Below are positions 105 through 64,000 of a stretch of DNA of 64,000 nucleotides, one piece after another. The position numbers and the translations under genes are program-made. Position 1 is the first letter of the stretch; every line of letters begins with the position of its first letter. The notes below the pieces were generated by a model that searched no databases, was not told the DNA's origin, and saw only the letters and a program-made list of their open reading frames with translations. The stretch is from Larkinella soli. Lineage in GTDB: Bacteria > Bacteroidota > Bacteroidia > Cytophagales > Spirosomataceae. The stretch is from NCBI RefSeq assembly GCF_003703975.1, contig NZ_ML112622.1, forward strand, positions 187,971-251,970, written 5' to 3'.

Positions 105-1196
105 ATGAGCAACCTGTTATTCTCTCCGGCCAGACTGGGCAACCTGACACTTACCAACCACATCGCCATGGCGCCGATGACGCGGAGCCGGGCCTTCAAC
201 AACATCCCGAACGAACTGATCGCCACTTATTACGCCCAGCGGGCTACGGCCGGTCTGCTGATTACCGAAGGCACTTCCCCCTCGCCGAACGGCCTGGGCT
301 ATTCCCGGATTCCGGGCCTCTTCAGCCCCGAGCAGATCGCCGGCTGGAAACTCGTCACGAAGGCCGTTCATGACAGGGGCGGGCATATTTTCGTGCAGCT
401 CATGCATACGGGCCGCGTCGCCCACCCGCTGAACCTTCCCGTTGGTGCGGAAGTCGTGGGTCCGTCGGCCGTGGCGGCCGAAGGCATGATGTGGACCGAC
501 CAGGAAGGCCCCAAACCGAACGCCACCCCCCGCGAGCTGACCACTGAAGAAGTGAAAGCCGTTATTCAGGAATTTGTGCAGGCATCGAAAAATGCCGTTG
601 AAGCCGGTTTCGACGGCGTCGAACTGCACGGTGCCAACGGCTACCTGATCGAGCAGTTCATTCACCCGGCCAGCAACCGCCGGACCGACGAATACGGCGG
701 CAGCATCGAAAACCGCGCCCGTTTCGCCCTCGAAGTGGCCGAACAGGTCGTCCGGGCCATCGGGAAAGAACGCGTCGGCATCCGGCTTTCGCCCTACGGC
801 GTGGCCAACGACCTGCCCCATTATCCCGAAATCGAAGAAACTTACACCTACCTGGCCGAAAAACTGAACGACCTCGGTATCGTTTACATCCACCTCGTCG
901 ATCACTCGGCCATGGGCGCCCCGGCCGTGGCCCCGTCGACGGTGAAAGCCGTCCGCGAACGGTTTAAAAATACGTTGATCCTCAGCGGCAACTACAACGC
1001 CGAACGCGGTGAAGCCGACCTGCAGAGCGGACTCGCCGACCTGATCGCCATCGGCCGGCCGTTCATCTCCAACCCGGACCTTGTTGAACGGCTGGCTACC
1101 GGCACCGAACTGGCTCAGCCCGACCCATCCACCTTCTACGTCGGGGGCGAAAAAGGCTACATCGATTACCCGGCCCTGGTCGAAGCGTCGGTCTAA
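105..1196 (+). CDS. Old Yellow Enzyme family alkene reductase (NADH:flavin oxidoreductase)
   Basis: A 363-residue flavoprotein of the Old Yellow Enzyme class, predicted to reduce activated C=C bonds (enones, nitroesters) with NAD(P)H and FMN in the cytoplasm. The sequence shows the N-terminal FMN loop PMTRSRA near residue 24, the substrate-binding H175-x-x-N178 pair followed by the proton-donor Tyr180, the family signature RTDEYGGSIENR at about 193-204, and the FMN-phosphate segment IAIGRPF near residue 310. Length matches NemA-type enzymes. The start at 105 is the first ATG that gives the canonical N terminus. It stands alone and converges on the esterase gene. The family is certain; the physiological substrate cannot be read from sequence. 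Confidence 0.95.
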   Translation: MSNLLFSPARLGNLTLTNHIAMAPMTRSRAFNNIPNELIATYYAQRATAGLLITEGTSPSPNGLGYSRIPGLFSPEQIAGWKLVTKAVHDRGGHIFVQLMHTGRVAHPLNLPVGAEVVGPSAVAAEGMMWTDQEGPKPNATPRELTTEEVKAVIQEFVQASKNAVEAGFDGVELHGANGYLIEQFIHPASNRRTDEYGGSIENRARFALEVAEQVVRAIGKERVGIRLSPYGVANDLPHYPEIEETYTYLAEKLNDLGIVYIHLVDHSAMGAPAVAPSTVKAVRERFKNTLILSGNYNAERGEADLQSGLADLIAIGRPFISNPDLVERLATGTELAQPDPSTFYVGGEKGYIDYPALVEASV

Positions 1197-1241
1197 GGCT
1201 CCATTTCATTCAGTATCAGTACTTATGAGGTTAATAAACGG

Positions 1242-1273
1242 AAAAGCCGGAGGCAGTTGCTTCCGGCTTTTTT
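1242..1273. terminator. Bidirectional intrinsic terminator
   Basis: AAAAGCCGGAGGCA and TGCTTCCGGCTTTT form a stem with one G-T pair and a very small loop, flanked by an A run on the left and six T on the right. It sits between the convergent reductase (ends 1196) and esterase (ends 1277) genes, so it can serve both strands. Confidence 0.8.
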
Positions 1274-1276
1274 GGC

Positions 1277-2569
1277 TTACCGGTTCGTGCGGAGATGCCG
1301 GTCGGCAAACTCGATGTACTGCTCCCAGTCGTAGCGGAGAATGTCGTGCTTCCCCTCCCGGATGTGATACCGGACGGTTTCGCCGGTAGGCTGATGGAGG
1401 CCGGGCATCTGGTCGGTGCCGATGCCTTTTTTCCCGTACAGGGCATAGACCGGGTCGGTTTTCCGGGCGCTGGTAAACTCGCCCTTCGGGTCGGCCCACT
1501 GGTCTTCACGGGCGCTCGCTACGTACAAAGGCCGGGGCGCCATCAGCGCCAGCAGTTCGTGCTGGTCGACGGGCAGTGCCTCCGGCCGGTTGTTATAGGA
1601 CCGGTAGCGGTCGCAGAACCAGTGCGGAAAGCTGGTGTTTAATTTTTCAATGGTCTCCCCAAAAATCCGCCGGGACAGAGCCGCCCCCCCTTCGCCCGAA
1701 TCGTTCGAGAGGACGATGTCGAAACGGGGGTCCTGCGCACCGGCCCACAGGGCGGCTTTTCCCTGCCGCGAGTGTCCGACGGCGATGGCCCGACCGACAT
1801 CGACCGAAGGGTCGGTTTCGAGATAATCCAGCATCCTGGACATGCCCCAGGCCCAGACGCCGATGGCTTTCCAGCGGTCGGGCGCTCCCTCGACGGGCGG
1901 GTCCAGGACGGAACGAATGCCGGTTTTCCAGCCCTCGGGATGGTCAGGCTCCAGGTCGCCGTAGTAGGCGGTGGCGACGGCATAGCCTTTGGACAGGATC
2001 AGGTCGAGAGGCCAGCGACGGGCCTGAAAGCCGCGTGAAGCTTCGGTGGCGCGGTGGTCGACCACGACCCCGTCCCCGGCGTTCATCATCCAGCGAGTCG
2101 ACAGCAGAATGCCGGGGTCGGTGCTGACGCACTGGTTTCCGAAGTAATTCAGCCCGACAAAAACCGGGGGCCGCGATCCGCCGGTATTTTTTGGGGTATA
2201 CAGCAGAATTTCGAGCGGGGGCAGTTGCGGGTAGTCGGTCCAGAACACCGCCACCTGTTTGCGGACGGCCGTGCCGTTCAGGGCATTGGCGTCGACCGAC
2301 CGGACTTCGTAGCGGACATTGAGCTTTCGGTCGGGGGTTTTGCCGTAGACGTGTTCGGCAAACTGGCGCAGCAGATGAGGTCGCTGTTCGCGTTCCCATC
2401 CGGTTACGGACCTGACCGGTTTTCCGGCAGGAGTCAGCAGCGGATCGGGCAGCGAATAGGCCGGGACGGCGGCCTCGTCATAGTTGATACCGGGCTGCTG
2501 GCTCATTCCCGGCCGGCAAACGAGCAGCAGGCACAGCAGCAGAAACGATCGGAACAGTCGGGTAACCAT
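1277..2569 (-). CDS. Secreted glucuronoyl esterase-like alpha/beta hydrolase (CE15 type)
   Basis: A 430-residue exported serine hydrolase resembling bacterial CE15 glucuronoyl esterases, which cut the ester between lignin alcohols and glucuronic acid side chains of xylan. A signal peptide covers about residues 1-23. The nucleophile elbow GHSRQGKA carries Ser267 (the CE15 pattern G-x-S-R-x-G-K), an acidic SGEGG loop follows at 291-295, and the candidate catalytic His409 lies in GKHDI. The alpha/beta hydrolase core spans about 100-425. Some close relatives are annotated as acetylxylan esterases. No carbohydrate-active neighbours are visible, so the plant-polymer role is inference from family only. 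Confidence 0.85.
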   Translation of the reverse strand: MVTRLFRSFLLLCLLLVCRPGMSQQPGINYDEAAVPAYSLPDPLLTPAGKPVRSVTGWEREQRPHLLRQFAEHVYGKTPDRKLNVRYEVRSVDANALNGTAVRKQVAVFWTDYPQLPPLEILLYTPKNTGGSRPPVFVGLNYFGNQCVSTDPGILLSTRWMMNAGDGVVVDHRATEASRGFQARRWPLDLILSKGYAVATAYYGDLEPDHPEGWKTGIRSVLDPPVEGAPDRWKAIGVWAWGMSRMLDYLETDPSVDVGRAIAVGHSRQGKAALWAGAQDPRFDIVLSNDSGEGGAALSRRIFGETIEKLNTSFPHWFCDRYRSYNNRPEALPVDQHELLALMAPRPLYVASAREDQWADPKGEFTSARKTDPVYALYGKKGIGTDQMPGLHQPTGETVRYHIREGKHDILRYDWEQYIEFADRHLRTNR

Positions 2570-2893
2570 AGGGCGGCTTTATTGTGGTTGATACCGGCAA
2601 AAGACCGCAATCGGGTTAATCTAACTTTCAATTATTCAGGAAGATATGAATGATGTTTCGTATTTAAATAGAATTTTCCTATAGAAATAGGTCATTTTTA
2701 ACAACTGCCCTATATTTATGGCCGACAGAAAACGTTTAACACGTACCGTTGTCCGTGTCCGAAATTTGTATTTCCGGATCGAAAAGCCTTCTGTTGGAGG
2801 CTGCACCCGCCGGGCCGGGCGGTTTACGCACCTCTCCGGCTGCCCGTCTTACCGATTTGATCATACCGGACTGTCTTAATTTTTGAAGGATCG
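2570..2893. other. 324-bp divergent intergenic region
   Basis: Separates the leftward esterase from the rightward histidine kinase, so both promoters should lie here. I find no exact TAnnTTTG element. A short inverted repeat CCTAT-AGAA-ATAGG occurs at 2678-2691, in an AT-rich stretch (2640-2720) that contrasts with the GC-rich flanks. No ORF with coding character is seen. Confidence 0.4.
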
Positions 2894-4411
2894 ATGGACC
2901 ATTTTGCCTCCCTTGCCGTGCAGAACATTCAGGATTTTGCCATCCTGGTGCTTGATCCGCATGGTATCATTCAATTCTCCAGCGAGGGAATCGTCCACGT
3001 GAACGGATTTACTTCGAAAGAGGTGACCGGCCAGCCCGTATCGGTTTTTTATCCTCGTCAGGATGCCGCGGAATACCGATCCGGACAAGTGCTGGAAACC
3101 GCCCGGCGGGAAGGAAAACACCGGGAGGAGGGCTGGCGGCTCTGTCGGGACGGCAGTCTGTTTCCGGCCGGCGTCGTCACCACTCCCATTCTGGAAGGCG
3201 AACACCTGATCGGCTATACGCAGGTGATGCAGAACCTGACGGAACAGCGACAAGCCGACGAGTCACTCCGCGCCAGTGAGGAGCGGTATCGCCTGCTGGT
3301 AGAGGAAGTGAAGGATTACGGAATTTTCATGATGGATACCGGCGGATACATCACCAGCTGGAACGAAGGCGCCCGACGCATCAACGGCTACGAAGCCCAT
3401 GAAATCATCGGCCGGCACTTCTCGACCTTTTATACCGAGGAGGACCTCAAAGACGGCAAACCTGCCCGGGAACTGAAAATCGCGCGGGAGACCGGCAAAT
3501 ACGAGGAAGAAGGCTGGCGGCTTCGGAAAGACGGCTCCCTGTTCTGGGCAAGCATCGTCATTACGGCCGTTAACAATGCGGAACGGGAACTGGTCGGCTT
3601 TTCAAAAGTAACCCGTAACCTGACCGACCGGAAAGAAGCTGAAGATATCCTGAAGGCCAGCGAGGAGCGTTACCGCATCATGACCGAGGAGTTGAAACTC
3701 GCCAATCAGGAATTGAGAAACTTTGCCTACGTGGCTTCCCACGACCTTCAGGAACCGCTGCGGAAAATCCAGGCGTTCGGCGACGTCCTGCAAACCCAGT
3801 TTGCGCCTTCGCTTGGTGACGCAGGTAACGACCTGGTTCGGCGGATGCAGTCGGCGGCCCGGCGGATGCAGTCGCTGGTGCAGGACCTGCTGGCCTACTC
3901 GCGACTGAACAATGAGGTGACCTATGTCGAAAAAGTTTCGCTTAACCAGCTGGTCGCCCAGATTCTGGGTGATCTGGAAGTCGTCATTCAGGAGAAGGAG
4001 GCCGAGATCCGGGTCGACTCCCTCCCCGACATTCCCGGCAGCGAACCGCAACTGAGGCAGATGTTTCAGAACCTGCTATCCAACGCCCTCAAATTCAGCC
4101 ACATGGACCGGCCGCCCCGGATACGGGTCAGCAGCCGCACGGTGCCGCTTACGCAGGTTCCGAAATCGATCCGGCTGCGAAGAATCCACTGGGTAGCCAT
4201 CGAGGTCGCCGACAACGGCATCGGCTTCGAAGAAAAATACCGCGACCGCATTTTCCAGATGTTCCAGCGCCTGCACGGCCGTAGCCAGTACACCGGCACC
4301 GGCATCGGGCTGGCCATCTGTAAAAAGGTCGCCGAAAACCACGGCGGCACCATCGTAGCCGAAAGCACCCCGGGGGAAGGCAGCACCTTTACGGTCTATA
4401 TGCCGGTCTGA
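2894..4411 (+). CDS. PAS-PAS sensor histidine kinase
   Basis: A 505-residue soluble sensor kinase. Two PAS domains cover about residues 5-120 and 135-250, each ending in the PAC-like pattern GYTQVMQNLTEQ or GFSKVTRNLTDR. A HisKA dimerisation domain follows with the phospho-acceptor His283 in SHDLQEPLRK, then a HATPase domain at about 385-505 with N box QNLLSNALKFS, G1 box DNGIGF and G2 box GTGIGLAICKK. No membrane segment is seen, so it probably senses a cytoplasmic or diffusible cue. A cofactor in the PAS domains cannot be assigned. No response regulator gene is adjacent (orphan kinase). The ATG at 2894 follows GAAGGATCG and gives a complete first PAS domain. Confidence 0.93.
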   Translation: MDHFASLAVQNIQDFAILVLDPHGIIQFSSEGIVHVNGFTSKEVTGQPVSVFYPRQDAAEYRSGQVLETARREGKHREEGWRLCRDGSLFPAGVVTTPILEGEHLIGYTQVMQNLTEQRQADESLRASEERYRLLVEEVKDYGIFMMDTGGYITSWNEGARRINGYEAHEIIGRHFSTFYTEEDLKDGKPARELKIARETGKYEEEGWRLRKDGSLFWASIVITAVNNAERELVGFSKVTRNLTDRKEAEDILKASEERYRIMTEELKLANQELRNFAYVASHDLQEPLRKIQAFGDVLQTQFAPSLGDAGNDLVRRMQSAARRMQSLVQDLLAYSRLNNEVTYVEKVSLNQLVAQILGDLEVVIQEKEAEIRVDSLPDIPGSEPQLRQMFQNLLSNALKFSHMDRPPRIRVSSRTVPLTQVPKSIRLRRIHWVAIEVADNGIGFEEKYRDRIFQMFQRLHGRSQYTGTGIGLAICKKVAENHGGTIVAESTPGEGSTFTVYMPV

Positions 4412-5589: not shown

Positions 5590-6969
5590 TCAGGGCTTCC
5601 AGCGTAGTCCGACAATCATCCCGTAACTATACGGCCGAACGTTAAAACAGCGCGAATTATCGCTGATGGCGCTCAGGTTATAAACAATCCCCGGCTCGAC
5701 CTGTAACCGCAGATGGTCGGTCAGCCGGCGCTCGATCCCGTAGGAAGCCTGAACCGAGGGCTGCCAGGGCTGCCGGTGCCGGTCGGTCAGCAGATAGCCG
5801 ACGCTCAGACCGGCCGCCAGGGAGTGCTGAAGGCCCATCGGGGCAGTCCCTCCTCCGTTCAGTTTCAGACGTCCTTCCGCACTCAGGGCCACATACCGCC
5901 AGGTGGTCTTTACCTGCTTTTCCTGAGATTTATACAGGGGAACGACCCGGATGGTCTGCGCATCGATCCACTCCATGCGCGACGAATCCGGCCGGGCCGA
6001 CCGCGCCGTATACGCCATCTGCTGCTGCAACTGCTGGTAGACCCCCGCAATCCGCAGGCCGAACCGGCGGCTCAGCGGCCACTCGGCGCCCAGCTGAAGG
6101 CGCCAGCCTGCGCGGGAAGAAAGCGAGGTTGCCGGCTGGATTTTTTCCATCACCACCTCGTCCTGCCGGACGGGAGTAACCTTCCGGAACGTATACAGCG
6201 GCATTACCCCGGCAAAGAGGGAAGGTTTCCGGGAGGTTCTTTCCGGCTCGATGGCCGGGGCACGGTAAGCCGGCTCGGGCAGGGCGGTAGTGAGGGCTGG
6301 ATAGTGCAGCGGGCGAAAAGCGATTCGGTCGGCTGCCAATATAAATCGGTTTTCGGCGGGCGATGCGGAGCCGGCCGGTGCCGGGTCATCGGCGGTGGAG
6401 GAAAGGCGGTCTCTCTCAACCCGGTTTTCGCCGACCCAAGGTGTCACCGGGGTGCGGCCGGCAAATCCGACGGAAGCATGGTCGGCCGCGGGGGCCAGAC
6501 GGTCCTCGATGCGTTCAGTTTGCGGCTGGAGACGGTTTCCGCTCGGTTGGGAATAAGAAGGTTCACGAGCGTCGTTCGGCCCGGCGGCAGGAGCCCGGCC
6601 GGAAGCGTCGGTCAGGAAATTGGAAGCGGCAGCGGCCGGCCTGGCCGACGGAAGTCCGGTACCGAAATTTTCCGGCTGCGGAACAACCGGTTTCAGCCTA
6701 CGGACGGCCACGGATGACCCCGGTTCACCGGCTTTGTCGGTGGACAGGTAATTACCGACCCCCAGGATAAGGGAAGTCAGAACCGCCAGGGCAGCGGCCG
6801 ACCAGCCCAGCAGCCGGGACCGGCGGGATAGCGGAACACGCCGACCCGGGGACGGGGCGGGGTTGGCACGGGCCAGGATGTGACTCAGGGGATCGGACTC
6901 CGGTTCGGACTCGTACTCTTCCAGGCGCCGGCGCAGGAGTCTCTCCCATTCGTCGTCAGTAGCTGCCAT
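5590..6969 (-). CDS. Membrane-anchored ECF partner with C-terminal beta-barrel-like domain (anti-sigma candidate)
   Basis: A 459-residue protein. The cytoplasmic N terminus (DDEWERLLRRRLEEYESEP) resembles the short sigma-binding heads of Bacteroidota anti-sigma-like proteins, one membrane helix follows at about residues 53-75, a Pro/Ala-rich linker spans about 80-250, and the last 190 residues have alternating hydrophobic strands typical of an outer-membrane-type beta-barrel domain (for example WRLQLGAEWPLSRRFGLRIAG). I choose the ATG at 6969; an in-frame TTG lies at 6978. Its start overlaps the end of the sigma factor gene by 14 bp, so the two are translationally coupled. Anti-sigma function is inferred from this coupling. 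Confidence 0.7.
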   Translation of the reverse strand: MAATDDEWERLLRRRLEEYESEPESDPLSHILARANPAPSPGRRVPLSRRSRLLGWSAAALAVLTSLILGVGNYLSTDKAGEPGSSVAVRRLKPVVPQPENFGTGLPSARPAAAASNFLTDASGRAPAAGPNDAREPSYSQPSGNRLQPQTERIEDRLAPAADHASVGFAGRTPVTPWVGENRVERDRLSSTADDPAPAGSASPAENRFILAADRIAFRPLHYPALTTALPEPAYRAPAIEPERTSRKPSLFAGVMPLYTFRKVTPVRQDEVVMEKIQPATSLSSRAGWRLQLGAEWPLSRRFGLRIAGVYQQLQQQMAYTARSARPDSSRMEWIDAQTIRVVPLYKSQEKQVKTTWRYVALSAEGRLKLNGGGTAPMGLQHSLAAGLSVGYLLTDRHRQPWQPSVQASYGIERRLTDHLRLQVEPGIVYNLSAISDNSRCFNVRPYSYGMIVGLRWKP

Positions 6970-59044: not shown

Positions 59045-59119
59045 GGGTTCTTAGCTCAGCTGGTTCAGAGCATCTGCCTTACAAGCAGAGGGTCGGGGGT
59101 TCGAATCCCTCAGGACCCA
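59045..59119 (+). tRNA. tRNA-Val (anticodon TAC)
   Basis: A complete cloverleaf: acceptor stem GGGTTCT/AGGACCC with one T-G pair, D-arm with AGCTCAGCTGG, anticodon stem TCTGC/GCAGA with loop CTTACAA (anticodon TAC), and the T-arm GTTCGAATCC. The discriminator is A119; CCA is not encoded. A good promoter precedes it. As a tRNA gene it is a common integration target, and the atypical region begins just downstream. Confidence 0.97.
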
Positions 59120-59132
59120 CCCTCATAATCAG

Positions 59133-59222: not shown

Positions 59223-59835
59223 CTAAGACTCTTTTGTCAAAAATTTGATGGCCCGTTCGAGCGCTTCGTCTCTCCCGGCCTGGATACCTTGGATGGTGGG
59301 TTGTATTTTTATGTCAGGTTGAATTCCAGCCCGCTCAATGGGCATGCCCCTTAGCCCCAACCGAAGATGGCCGGGTATATGGTAGTTGACAAAGTAAGAA
59401 TTGGCTCCGGCGGTTGGACTTCCAATCAACGTAGCATTACAGATCGTTTTTAAGGCCAGCGTCATATTATCGCCGACACTCTGGGCCGCCCGCTGGTCAG
59501 CACCACCACTTTAACCGGCAGGGCCAGCTTTTTGTCATACCGCATCGATTCGGTATACGACCCCTCGCTTGCGATCAATACCCCCCACCGGGCCACAGCC
59601 ATCGCCTTTGGCGAGGTAGCCGGCAGGTTTCCCGAAGCTGGTTATAGATCCCAGGCTGTGTTTTACGAGTCATTGTTTCTACGATTCTGCTCTACTAGGC
59701 ATCGCTGCCCTGCGGATAGCACCGTAAGGTAAAGATAACCCCTTGGCCTGATCGAGCATCTTTAGTATAATGTCGTGAGGCACTCGACTCAACCCACTGG
59801 TCAGATCAAGATACCCCACCTTTGCAGTAAGCCAC
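59223..59835 (-). pseudogene. Decayed S41 family peptidase gene
   Basis: The minus strand preserves the C-terminal part of an S41 (C-terminal-processing-like) peptidase: 59223-59465 reads ICNATLIGSPTAGANSYFVNY and later IERAGIQPDIKIQPTI, ending AIKFLTKES. Upstream, pieces in other frames still resemble the family (VVLTSGR at about 59500; VGYLDLTSGLSRVPHDIILKMLDQAKG at about 59735-59815). Frameshifts and an in-frame stop separate the pieces, and the N-terminal domain is missing. It was probably cut off by an insertion or deletion at the tRNA-side boundary. Confidence 0.75.
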
Positions 59836-60052: not shown

Positions 60053-60084
60053 TTGCATTATTTGAATTTTTCCTAATACCTTTG
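60053..60084 (+). promoter_or_regulatory. Promoter of the four-gene operon
   Basis: TTG (60053-60055) and TACCTTTG (60077-60084) with 21-bp spacing match the Bacteroidota consensus seen also before the tRNA gene. Confidence 0.65.
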
Positions 60085-60191: not shown

Positions 60192-60428
60192 ATGGAAAAC
60201 ACTAACACAGAAGCAAGAAAACAGAGATTTAAAGTGGTTGCATCTAGGAGAGTACAAAAGGTATTGGATGACATGGAAAACCTCTCTAAATGTGCGAACA
60301 AAAGAAACTATGAATACACAGATGAGGAAATAAAGAAAATGTTCAAAGTATTAAACGAAAAATACATGCAACTAAAAGCAGCTTTTGCTGCCACTTCAGG
60401 ACAAGAAAAAGAGACCTTTAAGTTCTAA
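60192..60428 (+). CDS. Small helical protein heading the GHKL operon
   Basis: A 78-residue Lys-rich protein, predicted all helical: RFKVVASRRVQKVLDDMENLSKCANKRNYEYT followed by an acidic-basic helix DEEIKKMFKVLNEKYMQLKAAF. I associate the pattern RVQKxLDxxxxLxxCxNKxNYEYTxEE with a small unnamed family found in many bacteria, often beside defence or mobile genes. It has no nuclease or HTH motif. It ends 4 bp before the ATPase start, so it is the first gene of the operon. It might act as a regulator or a complex subunit. Codon use is AT-rich, unlike most of the window. Confidence 0.8.
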   Translation: MENTNTEARKQRFKVVASRRVQKVLDDMENLSKCANKRNYEYTDEEIKKMFKVLNEKYMQLKAAFAATSGQEKETFKF

Positions 60429-60432
60429 AGAA

Positions 60433-62370
60433 ATGGAAACTAATATCGGCTGGAAAGGAATACCTAAGATTAAAGGCTGGGATGGGCTAAATAATGCTGC
60501 CATTCAAACCTTTAATAGCGACATAGTTCGATCATTCATAAGAGAGATGTTCCAAAACTCAAATGATGCAAGGGAATTTGGTGAAGGCGAAAAAAAGAAG
60601 AAGTTGAAAATATCCCTGAATTATAGGACAATAACAAGCGAGGAAATCCCAGATTTCAATGAGCTCATTGAAATTATCAAATCTACCTCCAACGCACCAG
60701 CTAACAAAGGGCACGAGCAATTTTTCAAACAAGCATTAGAAAGTATCCAAGACCAAAACAGTATTTGTGTTTTAGAGTACAAAGATTATAATACAGTAGG
60801 GCTATCAGGAAGTGATGAAGACAACGATTCTACATTTTATGCATGTGTTCTTGCAGAAGGTTTATCAATAAAAAAGAATACCACTGCAGGAGGGAGCTAC
60901 GGAATCGGGAAAAACTCAACATATGGCTTTTCTAAAATCCGAACAGTTTTGTATTCATCCTTAAATAAGGAGGAAGAGTTCATATTTCAAGGCGTAGCTA
61001 AGCTAGCATCTTACAAAAAGGGTGATACTACAAATGAATATCGCGTTTTCTTAGGAGAAGGAACCGAGGCCAGATCTGTAAGAGATAAAAATAAACTAAC
61101 CCAAAAGCAGAAAGATTTCTTGGTCCGAGATAAGCCAGGGCTCACACAAATAGTGCTATGCCCAATGAAAACCGAAATGTGGATTGAAGAATTCGCAAAA
61201 ACAATTTTAAAAAACTATTGGCAACTGCTTTCAATTGACGAGCTTGAAGTTGAATTAATGGAGGAAGGAAAAGTTCAGCTTTTTATTTCAAAAGATACGC
61301 TAGAAGGTCTCTTGGAACAATACTTTAATAATACAGAATTTGATCCTGCAGAAGATACTGCTCCAAAAGGAAATCCCCTTGACTACTATAATTGCTATAA
61401 AAAAAACGAGCCAATAGATGCGGAAATTTATGCAATAGGAAAAGTTAAATTTTTCTATGAAGAGCTTGACCATAAAAAAACAAACCATATCGCATTCATA
61501 AGGAATGGAATGGTAATATATAGTGAGAACATACACGGTTTCAGTTCTATTAAATATTGTGGTGTGTTCCTAGCCGACGAAGAAGGGGGCAATGAAATAC
61601 TCAGGATGATGGAGCCACCTACTCATGACCACTTTGACCCTCCTAGGCTGGAAGAAAAATCTAAAGAATACACAAAAAAAGATGGCGAAAAGATACTAAA
61701 AGAAATAAAGTCATTGATCAGGAAGTGTTTAAATCAGATTTTAGAAAGGTACCGGACAGGGGTTGAAGAAATCCCATGGCTAAATGAATTATTCAACACC
61801 CCGAATGGACTTTCCAAATCAACTAAAGGCCATAATACAGGAATAAATGGAATTAATGAAACTGTATCAAGGATTTCATCAAATAACGTAAAAGTTTTAA
61901 GCTTTTCTTCTTTGAGTAAGAATAGCAGTGTTACAGTTCAGGGGGAAGAAGAAAGTGTAACCAAAAGTTTTATTTCGGGAAATAAAAAAGGCTCCTCCTC
62001 AAATAATAAAACAAGCAAAAACACTAGCAGGGAATCGGCTAAAGCAGGGAGCTCCATAATAAAAGTTCGCATTTTTAAAAAAACAACAGTTACCAACAAC
62101 TCTCATTCATATATAATTAAGTTTAAAAGCCAAGAGAAGATTAGAAATAAAAACTTTCTCATTAAACAAATTGGCGATACAGGTGAAGTTAGCTCATTCG
62201 TAATAACTGACCTGATAGACAAAAATGGCAATAAAGTTAAATTTGAAGAGTTAAAAGGCAGCCGTGGAGAGCGAAACGGCTATAAGCTTTTAAATATTCA
62301 AATACCAAACGAGTTAGCTCTAATTGTACAAGAGCCGTATCATAGTGCATTTTCAATCTCTGAAAAATAA
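60433..62370 (+). CDS. GHKL-fold ATPase (Hsp90/MORC-like), probable defence-system component
   Basis: A 645-residue protein starting METNIGWKGIPKIKGWD. The N-terminal third has the GHKL signatures: N-box REMFQNSNDA with Glu38, Asn42 and Asp45 (the E-xxx-N-xx-DA pattern of Hsp90/MORC), a D118-YNTVG123-LSG region as the D-x-G box, and the lid motif GGSYGIGKNSTYG (residues 153-165). It thus likely binds ATP and dimerises or clamps on a target. The middle carries EEFAKTILKNYWQLLSIDELEVEL; the end has an unfamiliar Ser/Asn-rich linker then a beta-like domain. No nuclease motif is visible. The start at 60433 is 4 bp after the small gene. Precise family uncertain; paraMORC-like proteins of R-M and defence loci are the closest general match. 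Confidence 0.85.
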   Translation: METNIGWKGIPKIKGWDGLNNAAIQTFNSDIVRSFIREMFQNSNDAREFGEGEKKKKLKISLNYRTITSEEIPDFNELIEIIKSTSNAPANKGHEQFFKQALESIQDQNSICVLEYKDYNTVGLSGSDEDNDSTFYACVLAEGLSIKKNTTAGGSYGIGKNSTYGFSKIRTVLYSSLNKEEEFIFQGVAKLASYKKGDTTNEYRVFLGEGTEARSVRDKNKLTQKQKDFLVRDKPGLTQIVLCPMKTEMWIEEFAKTILKNYWQLLSIDELEVELMEEGKVQLFISKDTLEGLLEQYFNNTEFDPAEDTAPKGNPLDYYNCYKKNEPIDAEIYAIGKVKFFYEELDHKKTNHIAFIRNGMVIYSENIHGFSSIKYCGVFLADEEGGNEILRMMEPPTHDHFDPPRLEEKSKEYTKKDGEKILKEIKSLIRKCLNQILERYRTGVEEIPWLNELFNTPNGLSKSTKGHNTGINGINETVSRISSNNVKVLSFSSLSKNSSVTVQGEEESVTKSFISGNKKGSSSNNKTSKNTSRESAKAGSSIIKVRIFKKTTVTNNSHSYIIKFKSQEKIRNKNFLIKQIGDTGEVSSFVITDLIDKNGNKVKFEELKGSRGERNGYKLLNIQIPNELALIVQEPYHSAFSISEK

Positions 62371-62374
62371 AAAA

Positions 62375-63199
62375 ATGCAAGCGCAAACATACTCCTTTCC
62401 GCATCCGGTCCTTGGGTTAGGCGATGATATCAGTGGAATGTTAAATTTAGAATTGGAAACAACCAGGAATTCTCAGAATAGGACACTAGAATTCAATATA
62501 AAGAAGTTTAAAGTAGAGAACGGATACTTTGAAGATCTTCTTGTTTCAAATAAGGCAGGCATACTTTATAAAGTTTATTGTAGCTCTACATTAAAAACTT
62601 GGACGTTTTTAAATCCTAAGGACAAATTTGAAATCCCAGAAGACGATCTCGATAACAAGGCCGATATTAGCCCTTATTTAATTGCTCTCGAAGAACTAAA
62701 AGATTATTCTGACTCTTCTTTTAACGAAGATTTTGAAAACCAAAAATTCACTATTGGTAAATATGATATTATTGGTCTATTAGGAACTCTTCAAGTTCCA
62801 ATAACTAAGGAATATGAGAACTTAACCTTAAGTAATATTTTCCGATTCTCTGCATCTAATGATGAAGAGGGCCCAATCACTTTCAACTTTAATTCCGATA
62901 AAATCTTTATTTATTATCCTATTGCCCAAGATGGAGCTCATATTCATAATGCTTTATTTAACAAATATAGGTGGACCGCATATAATTTATTTATCCTTCC
63001 GGCGCTTACAGAAGCATTTCGTTTAATGAAAGCGCCAAATGACATTAAAGAAGAGTACCAAGATAAAGAATGGTGCAACGTGTTAAGTAGACTATTTCCG
63101 GACCATGAAAACACCCCAGATCCTTATTCTTGTGCACAACTCCTTTTGAACAGAGAACTTCCTCTACTTCTTTCTTATAATGAATTAATTAAAACCTGA
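62375..63199 (+). CDS. Protein of unknown function in the GHKL operon
   Basis: A 274-residue protein starting MQAQTYSFPHPVLGLGDDIS, 4 bp after the ATPase stop. It appears alpha/beta: NRTLEFNIKKFKVENGYFEDLL, KAGILYKVYCSSTLKTWTFLNP, KYDIIGLLGTLQVP and the aromatic FNFNSDKIFIYYPIAQDGAHIHNALF. The C terminus is helical with YSCAQLLLNRELPLLL. The pattern PHPVLGxxDDI is one I have seen at the start of conserved hypothetical proteins beside GHKL ATPases, but I cannot name a family. A subunit of a complex with the ATPase is likely from tight spacing. Confidence 0.75.
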   Translation: MQAQTYSFPHPVLGLGDDISGMLNLELETTRNSQNRTLEFNIKKFKVENGYFEDLLVSNKAGILYKVYCSSTLKTWTFLNPKDKFEIPEDDLDNKADISPYLIALEELKDYSDSSFNEDFENQKFTIGKYDIIGLLGTLQVPITKEYENLTLSNIFRFSASNDEEGPITFNFNSDKIFIYYPIAQDGAHIHNALFNKYRWTAYNLFILPALTEAFRLMKAPNDIKEEYQDKEWCNVLSRLFPDHENTPDPYSCAQLLLNRELPLLLSYNELIKT

Positions 63200-63208
63200 A
63201 TTGTAGCT

Positions 63209-63925
63209 ATGAAAATTTTGACTAATGCATGCTGTGACAGCCTGCTATTGATAGCAAGCGACATGAGAGAAAATAATCTTTATAGTGGCACTAGCTTTGA
63301 AGGGGAATTTAATTTTCTAAATGAGGAGTTACCTATCAATGAACCATCTGATGTTCAACTGATATTAAACAATAGCGCTTCAGCTGATTTTGAAAATTCA
63401 AAAAAGATATTTGAACATTTCAAGAGGTTGAATCGTGCTCAAGCTAGTGACCGCCGCATTTGGGTGACGCTTACACACAAATACTTTTTTGAATATACGA
63501 AAAACAGGTGGGAAATTAACCAAAATACTACGCCCAGGACTCTTGTTGAGCGTTTTCATTTTGAAGGGTTTGGTCTTGCTACTAGGATGAGAAATAGTAT
63601 TTCAAGGTTATGGTGGGCAGCTAAAATTACTTATGATGAAAACAGGGATGATAATTATGAACTTACAAAACTTCTTTGGACTAAACAAGATCTTTATCAA
63701 GGCCTTGTAGAGAGAAGCTTTGGAACTTATGATTGTGTTGTAAAAGGATTTTTAGAGTTTTATTCACGGAACCCTTCACTTAATGAAGGCCAGATAAGAC
63801 GTTTATTCACAGGCCTAAATGCAGTTGGTGGAGTTAAACCTTTAGCATTCCATACCAAGGATGAAATAATTGATATATTAGAATCAATTAGTGTGTTTTA
63901 TAAAGAGGAAGTAGTTTTAACTTAA
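63209..63925 (+). CDS. DUF6339-like protein in the GHKL operon
   Basis: A 238-residue protein starting MKILTNACCDSLLLIASDMREN, 9 bp after the previous gene. It shows the pattern DRRIWVTLTHKYFFEYTKNRW and later RMRNSISRLWWAAKITYDENRDD, which I recall as the core of DUF6339; helical throughout. DUF6339 genes are commonly seen next to restriction-modification and paraMORC-type GHKL genes in databases, from my memory. Biochemical role unknown. After the stop there are only 75 bases of window, so further genes of the operon may follow. Confidence 0.75.
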   Translation: MKILTNACCDSLLLIASDMRENNLYSGTSFEGEFNFLNEELPINEPSDVQLILNNSASADFENSKKIFEHFKRLNRAQASDRRIWVTLTHKYFFEYTKNRWEINQNTTPRTLVERFHFEGFGLATRMRNSISRLWWAAKITYDENRDDNYELTKLLWTKQDLYQGLVERSFGTYDCVVKGFLEFYSRNPSLNEGQIRRLFTGLNAVGGVKPLAFHTKDEIIDILESISVFYKEEVVLT

Positions 63926-64000
63926 TATAATTTTTCTTTTCAACTAAAAGAATAGAATAATCAATAACAAAACTTCCTAGTACTTAACATATGGTAATTT
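63926..64000. other. AT-rich trailing region at the window edge
   Basis: Holds an imperfect TTCTTTT/AAAAGAA inverted repeat (63934-63952), too AT-rich to be a strong terminator. No ORF can be recognised before the edge; whether the operon continues cannot be seen. Confidence 0.4.

Follow-up and report, generated by a model that had tools for sequence, protein, structure and literature searches.

A conserved GHKL ATPase cassette of Larkinella soli has relatives beside changing restriction-modification genes, suggesting an accessory role in DNA restriction

Results

Four intact genes form a cassette around a paraMORC2-type ATPase

The 64,000-nucleotide stretch of the Larkinella soli genome analysed here (contig NZ_ML112622.1, positions 187,971 to 251,970 of the forward strand; hereafter "the window") carries near its end four intact genes on the plus strand, which the original prediction, made from the sequence alone, had presented as an uncharacterised defence or conflict module built around a GHKL ATPase. 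We refer to them as g1 (60192-60428, 78 residues), g2 (60433-62370, 645 residues, the ATPase), g3 (62375-63199, beginning with ATG, 274 residues) and g4 (63209-63925, 238 residues). Their coordinates confirmed the intergenic gaps of 4, 4 and 9 bp that had been claimed. The ATG at 60433 was picked as the start of g2 through comparison with its relatives, while the mechanical list of open reading frames (ORFs) begins this gene at an upstream TTG (60385). Some 110 bp ahead of g1, at 60053-60084, a TTG is followed after 21 bp by TACCTTTG, which fits the Bacteroidota promoter pattern.

Searches with PADLOC profiles assigned g2 to PDC-M33A (3e-75), g3 to PDC-M33B (1.1e-32) and g4 to PDC-M33C (1.7e-43), with no match between g1 and any PDC-M33 model. 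Genes 2 to 4 of the supposedly uncharacterised system are therefore already catalogued as a candidate, although this candidate is unpublished: excerpts of two papers describe the PADLOC PDCs as unpublished and mostly unvalidated candidates obtained via "guilt by embedding" (PMC12988326, PMC11811056), and our literature search found no paper under the names PDC-M33 or DUF6339. In Pfam, g4 matched DUF6339 (5.2e-47), which bears out the DUF6339-like call made for the fourth protein; g2 had no match at E-values up to 1, g1 and g3 had none over the curated cut-offs, and none of the four genes matched an NCBIfam model over its cut-off. Sequence searches found no toxin or nuclease family in g1-g4 either. 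The predicted structure of g3 is an Ig/FN3-like beta-sandwich with a helical C-terminus, while that of g4 is a nearly all-helical, confident model with no PDB match; few polar residues are invariant in either protein.

The GHKL motifs previously claimed for the second gene were all present in g2: an N-box (R37-E38-xx-Q41-N42-xx-D45-A46), a D-x-G-like motif II (D118-xx-T121-x-G123) that reads D-xx-T-x-G-L and not DxGxG, and the lid motif GGSYGIGK at 153-160. In an alignment of 52 g2 sequences, including the window's own copy and a few duplicates, E38, Q41 and D45 were each present in 51, with a gap in the remaining one, and N42 in 50, the other two having a D and a gap; A46 was found in 36 (V in 13), while D118, T121, G123, G154, G157 and G159 were present in all 52. 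E394 and H398 were just as invariant (52/52), forming an ExxxH motif whose place fits the C-terminal part of the S5 domain, judged from sequence position alone. According to excerpts of Iyer et al. 2008 (PMC2292703), paraMORC1-5 are GHKL ATPases of restriction-modification (R-M) systems, of which paraMORC2 is recognised by an ExxxH motif that is conserved in its S5 domain, whereas MORC proper is defined by a GhXhhpXXRhl motif in S5. Because ExxxH is found in every aligned sequence, g2 is filed here as paraMORC2-type on the basis of its motifs. A PDB sequence search with g2 returned no relevant match, and the DUF4263 nuclease domain of Shedu/paraMORC3 was not found in g2 at Pfam E-values up to 1. 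A housekeeping MutL or Hsp90, the known type of family that would have spoken against a defence role, was rejected for g2: none of 14 control genomes gave a match, and the distribution is patchy, as described below.

The order of g2, g3 and g4 is conserved in other genomes

One scan of 84,980 species genomes provided 35 loci (locus labels begin with L, genome labels with G); because its patterns were drawn from three sequences, this sample favours Bacteroidota-like relatives. Using iterated profiles, g2, g3 and g4 were recognised in this order and on the same strand in 31 of the 35 loci, so that the co-occurrence on which the original prediction depended was seen for these three genes, with g1 recognised in only nine loci. 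At L054, g2 and g4 flank an unrecognised gene, and at L057-L059 g2 stands without recognised g3 and g4; these last three loci and L089 represent a variant cassette in which g2 is followed by two other genes, c8 (~255-265 residues) and c19 (240-252 residues). The alignment of g1 (15 rows) has seven invariant columns, N36, N39 and Y40 being among the invariant residues, and g1 is, by this sequence conservation, a genuine conserved family. Since gene order and strand are kept in so many loci of other genomes and since g1 is a true family, the four-gene arrangement is a real unit at the sequence level, more than a product of chance.

Among mobile elements, 25 plasmid records and one phage record gave matches. 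Eight plasmid records were opened and five of them contained all four genes (Priestia, Arthrobacter, Planococcus, Paenarthrobacter and Deinococcus, with g4 of the Paenarthrobacter plasmid spread across two overlapping frames); a Ligilactobacillus plasmid carries g2-g4, a Lactococcus plasmid record breaks off within g3, after g2, and on a haloarchaeal plasmid g2 is followed by another gene and then by DUF6339. Four loci on viral contigs all had g2-g3-g4, three of them with g1 (the remaining one breaks off at g2), two with a C5-methylase and one with Vsr. Matches to PDC-M33A, some of them weak, were obtained in one of nine genomes of the genus and in nine of 395 genomes of the phylum; the distribution of the cassette is thus patchy. 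Two deviating copies were seen on the way: one cassette holds two tandem DUF6339 genes (L042:12875-14422), and another is broken, with g2 in three ORFs and g3 in two (L087:6372-9160, genome G402).

Relatives of the cassette adjoin R-M genes of many kinds

Of the 35 loci, 21 had a C5-cytosine-methylase homologue in the examined flanks, and five more had other R-M genes: type I genes at L039 and L052, an adenine methylase at L041 (which belongs to the cluster annotated in L023), a type IIG gene at L043 and an Eco57I-type gene at L046. Neighbouring methylase or restriction genes, as expected of paraMORC2 R-M systems, thus accompany 26 of the 35 relatives, while no methylase was identified beside the window's own locus in a C5-methylase search of the genome and a family search of 10 ORFs past the insertion sequence described below. 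The examined flanks sum to ~0.45 Mb, whereas among 118 genomes of the phylum only 52 carry a C5-methylase at all, mostly with one or a few copies in 2-6 Mb of DNA; by this rough yardstick, chance would place a C5-methylase beside well under one of the 35 cassettes, against 21 observed, a count slightly weakened by the near-duplicate loci L035/L036 and L044/L051. The motif scan of the flanks was crude, and in the 14 loci without a C5-methylase further searches covered selected ORFs. No R-M gene was identified in nine loci: L035, L045 and L050, which have short flanks; L031, L057 and L059, where the scanned ORFs included neither an R-M nor a PLD gene; L036, where a protein with a PLD domain (PF13091, 1.8e-10) is encoded two genes past the cassette; L028, whose gene immediately ahead of g2 matches a PLD-like domain below threshold (7.4e-5); and L034, with a homing-type HNH endonuclease gene before g2. 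A fusion of a methyltransferase-like and a HIT domain, which also has a weak ThsC match, likewise lies before g2, the two genes together occupying L034:3801-5794.

A similar picture was obtained from the eight phylum genomes other than the window's own that match PDC-M33A. Seven of these were examined (all except G235), and a C5-methylase lies within a few kb of the cassette in five (G046, G073, G099, G102 and G159) and not in G206 and G402. Two of the five overlap with the 35 loci, L055 coming from G046 and L026 from G159, and the PDC-M33A matches of G073, G099 and G102 are weak and variant, G073 having the c8/c19 pair behind g2. Just before the cassette of G206 there are a gene for a 289-residue reverse transcriptase (L086:5923-6792; RVT_1, 1.3e-17), possibly a retron or DRT neighbour, and a small helix-turn-helix-like gene.

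The partners vary from one cassette to another. On plasmids, they include a MutH/Sau3AI enzyme (L017), a type II enzyme with Shedu (L018), an AlwI-type enzyme with a methylase and Vsr (L019, the Planococcus plasmid), a type II system (L020), adenine methylases with AlwI (L022) and MmeI with type I parts (L023). Neighbours were further tallied for 96 of 110 size-selected flanking ORFs of L025-L059, after dropping six c8/c19 ORFs and eight others; C5-methylase ORFs were excluded as already counted, and the tallies leave out L054 and the flanks of L017-L024. Among the best 25 of 85 Pfam families were HpaII, Mrr, N6-methylase and Vsr; the PADLOC tally covers the best 25 of 293 families. Other defence-type neighbours of cassettes include Schlafen-type proteins, SoFic and a reverse transcriptase. 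On our own reading only, the c6/c7 gene pairs in the flanks are McrBC-like. Vsr homologues were found in eight of the loci whose genes were clustered and also at L085 (the genome of L026), L089 and L120; those annotated in L018 and L021 were missed by our gene calls, which are simple ORFs. Altogether, a constant cassette is accompanied by varying restriction partners, and linkage to R-M genes is seen in most relatives.

g1 also precedes other GHKL-type ATPases

A profile search for g1 matched seven of the 395 phylum genomes. In four of these (G000, G073, G159 and G206) g1 is followed by g2. In G111 (L083), it precedes an 800-residue protein with the N-box EKITNSIDA and a weak match to HATPase_c_3 (1.7e-4, under the cut-off), with MutH-type and C5-methylase genes alongside; the g1 of G166 (L084) is followed by a 751-residue protein with ERITNAIDA and no Pfam match, adjacent to an N6/N4 methylase gene; and in G053 (L082), ORFs of 205 and 393 residues follow. 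Because g1 precedes GHKL proteins other than g2 at L083 and L084, it looks like a partner of several GHKL ATPase families in R-M loci. We found no earlier description of such sharing in a limited literature search, and the g1 family, including its placement before two other putative GHKL ATPases in R-M loci, is what is new here. L083 also encodes, two genes from the g1-linked ATPase, a second GHKL-type ATPase of 774 residues (615-2939, minus strand; ENIQNAYDA, GTFGIG).

In L. soli the cassette adjoins an insertion sequence scar and is unlinked from a C5-methylase

From 60 kb onward, all 500-base steps had a GC content of 0.31-0.37, compared with 0.48-0.65 across 50-58.75 kb, with ~35% in the cassette versus ~58% in the preceding 8 kb; the lower GC noted earlier relative to the first 58 kb was thus confirmed against 50-58.75 kb, the profile covering the window from 50 kb on. 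Upstream of the cassette lies a tRNA-Val(tac) gene (59045-59121, plus strand), an insertion hotspot, but placing the cassette "directly after" it was loose wording: 1,070 bp separate the tRNA from g1. They include a weakly peptidase S41-like remnant (59223-59465, minus strand; 0.041, under its cut-off) and, because the GC content of this remnant is normal, the low-GC insert seems to start near 59750 and not at the tRNA. In all eight sibling genomes of the genus that were fetched, DNA similarity starting at the gene before the tRNA ends at the tRNA or at most ~75 bp beyond, and therefore the sequence beyond differs in this strain. No second copy of the tRNA-Val 3' end, as integrases leave, was found in the genome.

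Another gene, g5, begins 65 bp after g4. It starts in the window (63991-64000, plus strand) and continues on the same contig (C6) to position 5715 of region L002, whose positions plus 59000 give those of the window (64715 in the window frame). It encodes a PLD nuclease domain (PF13091, 1e-16) with its HKD motif, and its closest solved relatives by sequence are NucT and Nuc. After residue 241, its frame enters the end of an IS3-type insertion sequence (IS) that replaces the final part of the protein, and the listed 269-residue ORF is for this reason a fusion with IS sequence. The element has transposase ORFs and terminal repeats beginning TGACCTTGACCC; its end is found twice in tandem as 50-bp copies that are 100% identical (L002:5716-5815, window frame 64716-64815), which may be a rearrangement scar or an assembly fault. 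On its far side, an FtsX/MacB permease gene starts at profile position 81 of the MacB domain and is therefore 5'-truncated, and no short target duplication was evident by eye. The whole region looks like an IS-linked deletion, with an assembly fault in the 50-bp copy as a possible alternative. The search beyond 64 kb that had been proposed for nuclease or methylase genes thus yielded the PLD-nuclease gene g5 but no R-M family among 10 further ORFs up to L002:19634.

Whether g5 belongs to the cassette is uncertain. A fixed fifth member was rejected, as no g5 relative was found among 760 genes called around the other loci; PLD genes at those loci were covered only as far as they fall within the best 25 of 85 Pfam families of the tally. 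A relative in G383 (L088:7718-8521), with no recognised cassette gene nearby, is 30% identical along almost its full length, the unnamed N-terminal part included, which points to a family of PLD nucleases that has an N-terminal domain of its own.

A search of the genome for C5-methylases (PF00145) matched contigs C3 and C12 only and found none on the cassette contig C6, the whole-contig search being confined to this methylase family. The C12 methylase sits with an MvaI/BcnI-type enzyme and Vsr, and it shares 58-60% identity with the methylases linked to the cassette on the Arthrobacter and Paenarthrobacter plasmids, whose restriction enzymes are unlike the one on C12. Because of this identity and of its own enzyme and Vsr, the C12 system is a possible partner in trans. 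In this strain, then, the cassette has no linked C5-methylase and borders on an IS scar.

Discussion

The original interpretation as a defence or conflict module is partly supported. On balance, we favour a more specific role, in which g1-g4 would form a MutL-like, ATP-driven accessory machine for DNA restriction that couples the recognition of unmodified DNA to a nuclease. This proposal is mainly motivated by the cassette being constant while its restriction partners change, with MutH and Vsr among them, the two nucleases with which MutL works according to excerpts of PMC2292703. From its conserved motifs, g2 would bind and probably hydrolyse ATP. By analogy with MutL and following these excerpts, g2 is probably a dimer closing on ATP, which may act as a clamp or loop DNA between recognition and cleavage sites. 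The g1 protein could be a small partner docking to the ATPase and g3 and g4 adaptors bridging to the nuclease, so that cleavage of unmodified foreign DNA would be boosted or licensed through the adjoining enzyme (MutH/Sau3AI, AlwI, type I, type IIG or others). In this strain, the linked methylase would have been lost or never present, and the partner could be the PLD nuclease or the C12 C5-methylase/MvaI-BcnI/Vsr system, unless the cassette is a remnant. A broader version, plausible yet rather doubtful, would make g1-g4 one complex powering cleavage by the linked restriction enzyme or PLD nuclease, of whichever kind, with g1 a general docking subunit of several GHKL families and DUF6339 a new fold.

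The main rival to an accessory role in restriction is a guard: an autonomous defence or abortive-infection module watching over the R-M system that would sense phage anti-restriction or DNA ends and kill or arrest the cell, its place beside R-M genes reflecting the clustering of defence genes. We consider this unlikely, even though PDC-M33 is defined without R-M parts, no R-M gene was identified beside the cassette in this strain or at nine of the 35 loci, and Schlafen-type, SoFic and reverse transcriptase genes adjoin some cassettes. Against the guard stand the missing toxin or nuclease family match in g1-g4 and a C5-methylase linkage tighter than loose island clustering would suggest, a comparison that has no other defence gene as control. 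A repair or self-protection device of C5-methylase systems, which would act in MutL fashion together with Vsr on the T:G mismatches left by 5-methylcytosine deamination or would limit self-cutting, appears the most improbable explanation: MutL does work with Vsr (excerpts of PMC2292703) and Vsr homologues do occur beside cassettes (the eight loci mentioned above, L018, L021, L085, L089 and L120), yet no Vsr was seen in most loci, and adenine-methylase, type I and type IIG systems accompany the cassette too.

Two further explanations concern the L. soli locus in particular. An IS-linked deletion may have taken the partner genes together with the end of g5 and left g1-g4 intact but idle. Such a decaying remnant is conceivable, if somewhat unlikely: the genes on either side of the IS are truncated (g5 after residue 241, FtsX from MacB position 81) and no target duplication was evident by eye, but g1-g4 are intact with conserved motifs, and the C12 C5-methylase with its restriction enzyme and Vsr could serve in trans, though this enzyme is unlike cassette-linked ones. 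It is quite improbable that some cassettes are methylase-free variants paired with a PLD-type nuclease, in which the clamp itself would discriminate foreign from self DNA. The PLD genes at g5, L036 and, sub-threshold, L028 would fit this idea, but they are three cases only, with different proteins, g5 has no relative among the 760 genes called around the other loci, and the full-length relative at L088 has no cassette gene nearby.

In the broader version described above, the cassette would be a general restriction booster outside the R-M type scheme. Since 2008, gene neighbourhoods have been the basis for proposing that GHKL ATPases take part in restriction. A compact, ordered unit whose restriction partners can be exchanged lends itself to clean experiments, with concrete handles in the g1 family and in a confident DUF6339 model that has no PDB match. 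A unit that boosts or licenses cleavage would account for the same ATPase beside unrelated restriction enzymes and would tie MutL/MORC evolution to immunity.

Several known systems resemble the cassette in part. Like MutL with MutH and Vsr, it would combine a GHKL ATPase with restriction endonuclease-fold nucleases, since some cassettes or g1-linked ATPases have MutH/Sau3AI-family and Vsr genes as neighbours; unlike mismatch repair, it has other companions and a mobile R-M context, and g2 lacks a relevant PDB sequence match. The HEF_HK/Response_reg_2 elements, in excerpts of PMC8011034, also place a GHKL protein beside C5-methylase and Vsr genes, but as a two-component-like pair, and g1-g4 have no Pfam match to either domain. 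Shedu systems with a GHKL N-terminus (paraMORC3, VcSduA; excerpts of PMC12137116) likewise use a GHKL ATPase in phage defence, but with the DUF4263 nuclease in the same chain, a domain for which g2 has no Pfam match. The paraMORC2 systems of PMC2292703 share the GHKL N-box, the ExxxH motif and, in the cassette relatives, methylase and Vsr neighbours; the excerpts of that paper describe no g1-, g3- or DUF6339-like partners, and the window copy differs in having no linked methylase. The A, B and C models of PDC-M33 are all matched by the adjacent g2, g3 and g4, while g1 falls outside the PDC-M33 models and the PADLOC output gives neither a function nor an R-M link. The g2-g4 kind is thus already known, as a catalogued candidate defence cassette and as paraMORC2 in R-M, and it is extended here by g1, the ordered quartet and the swappable partners.

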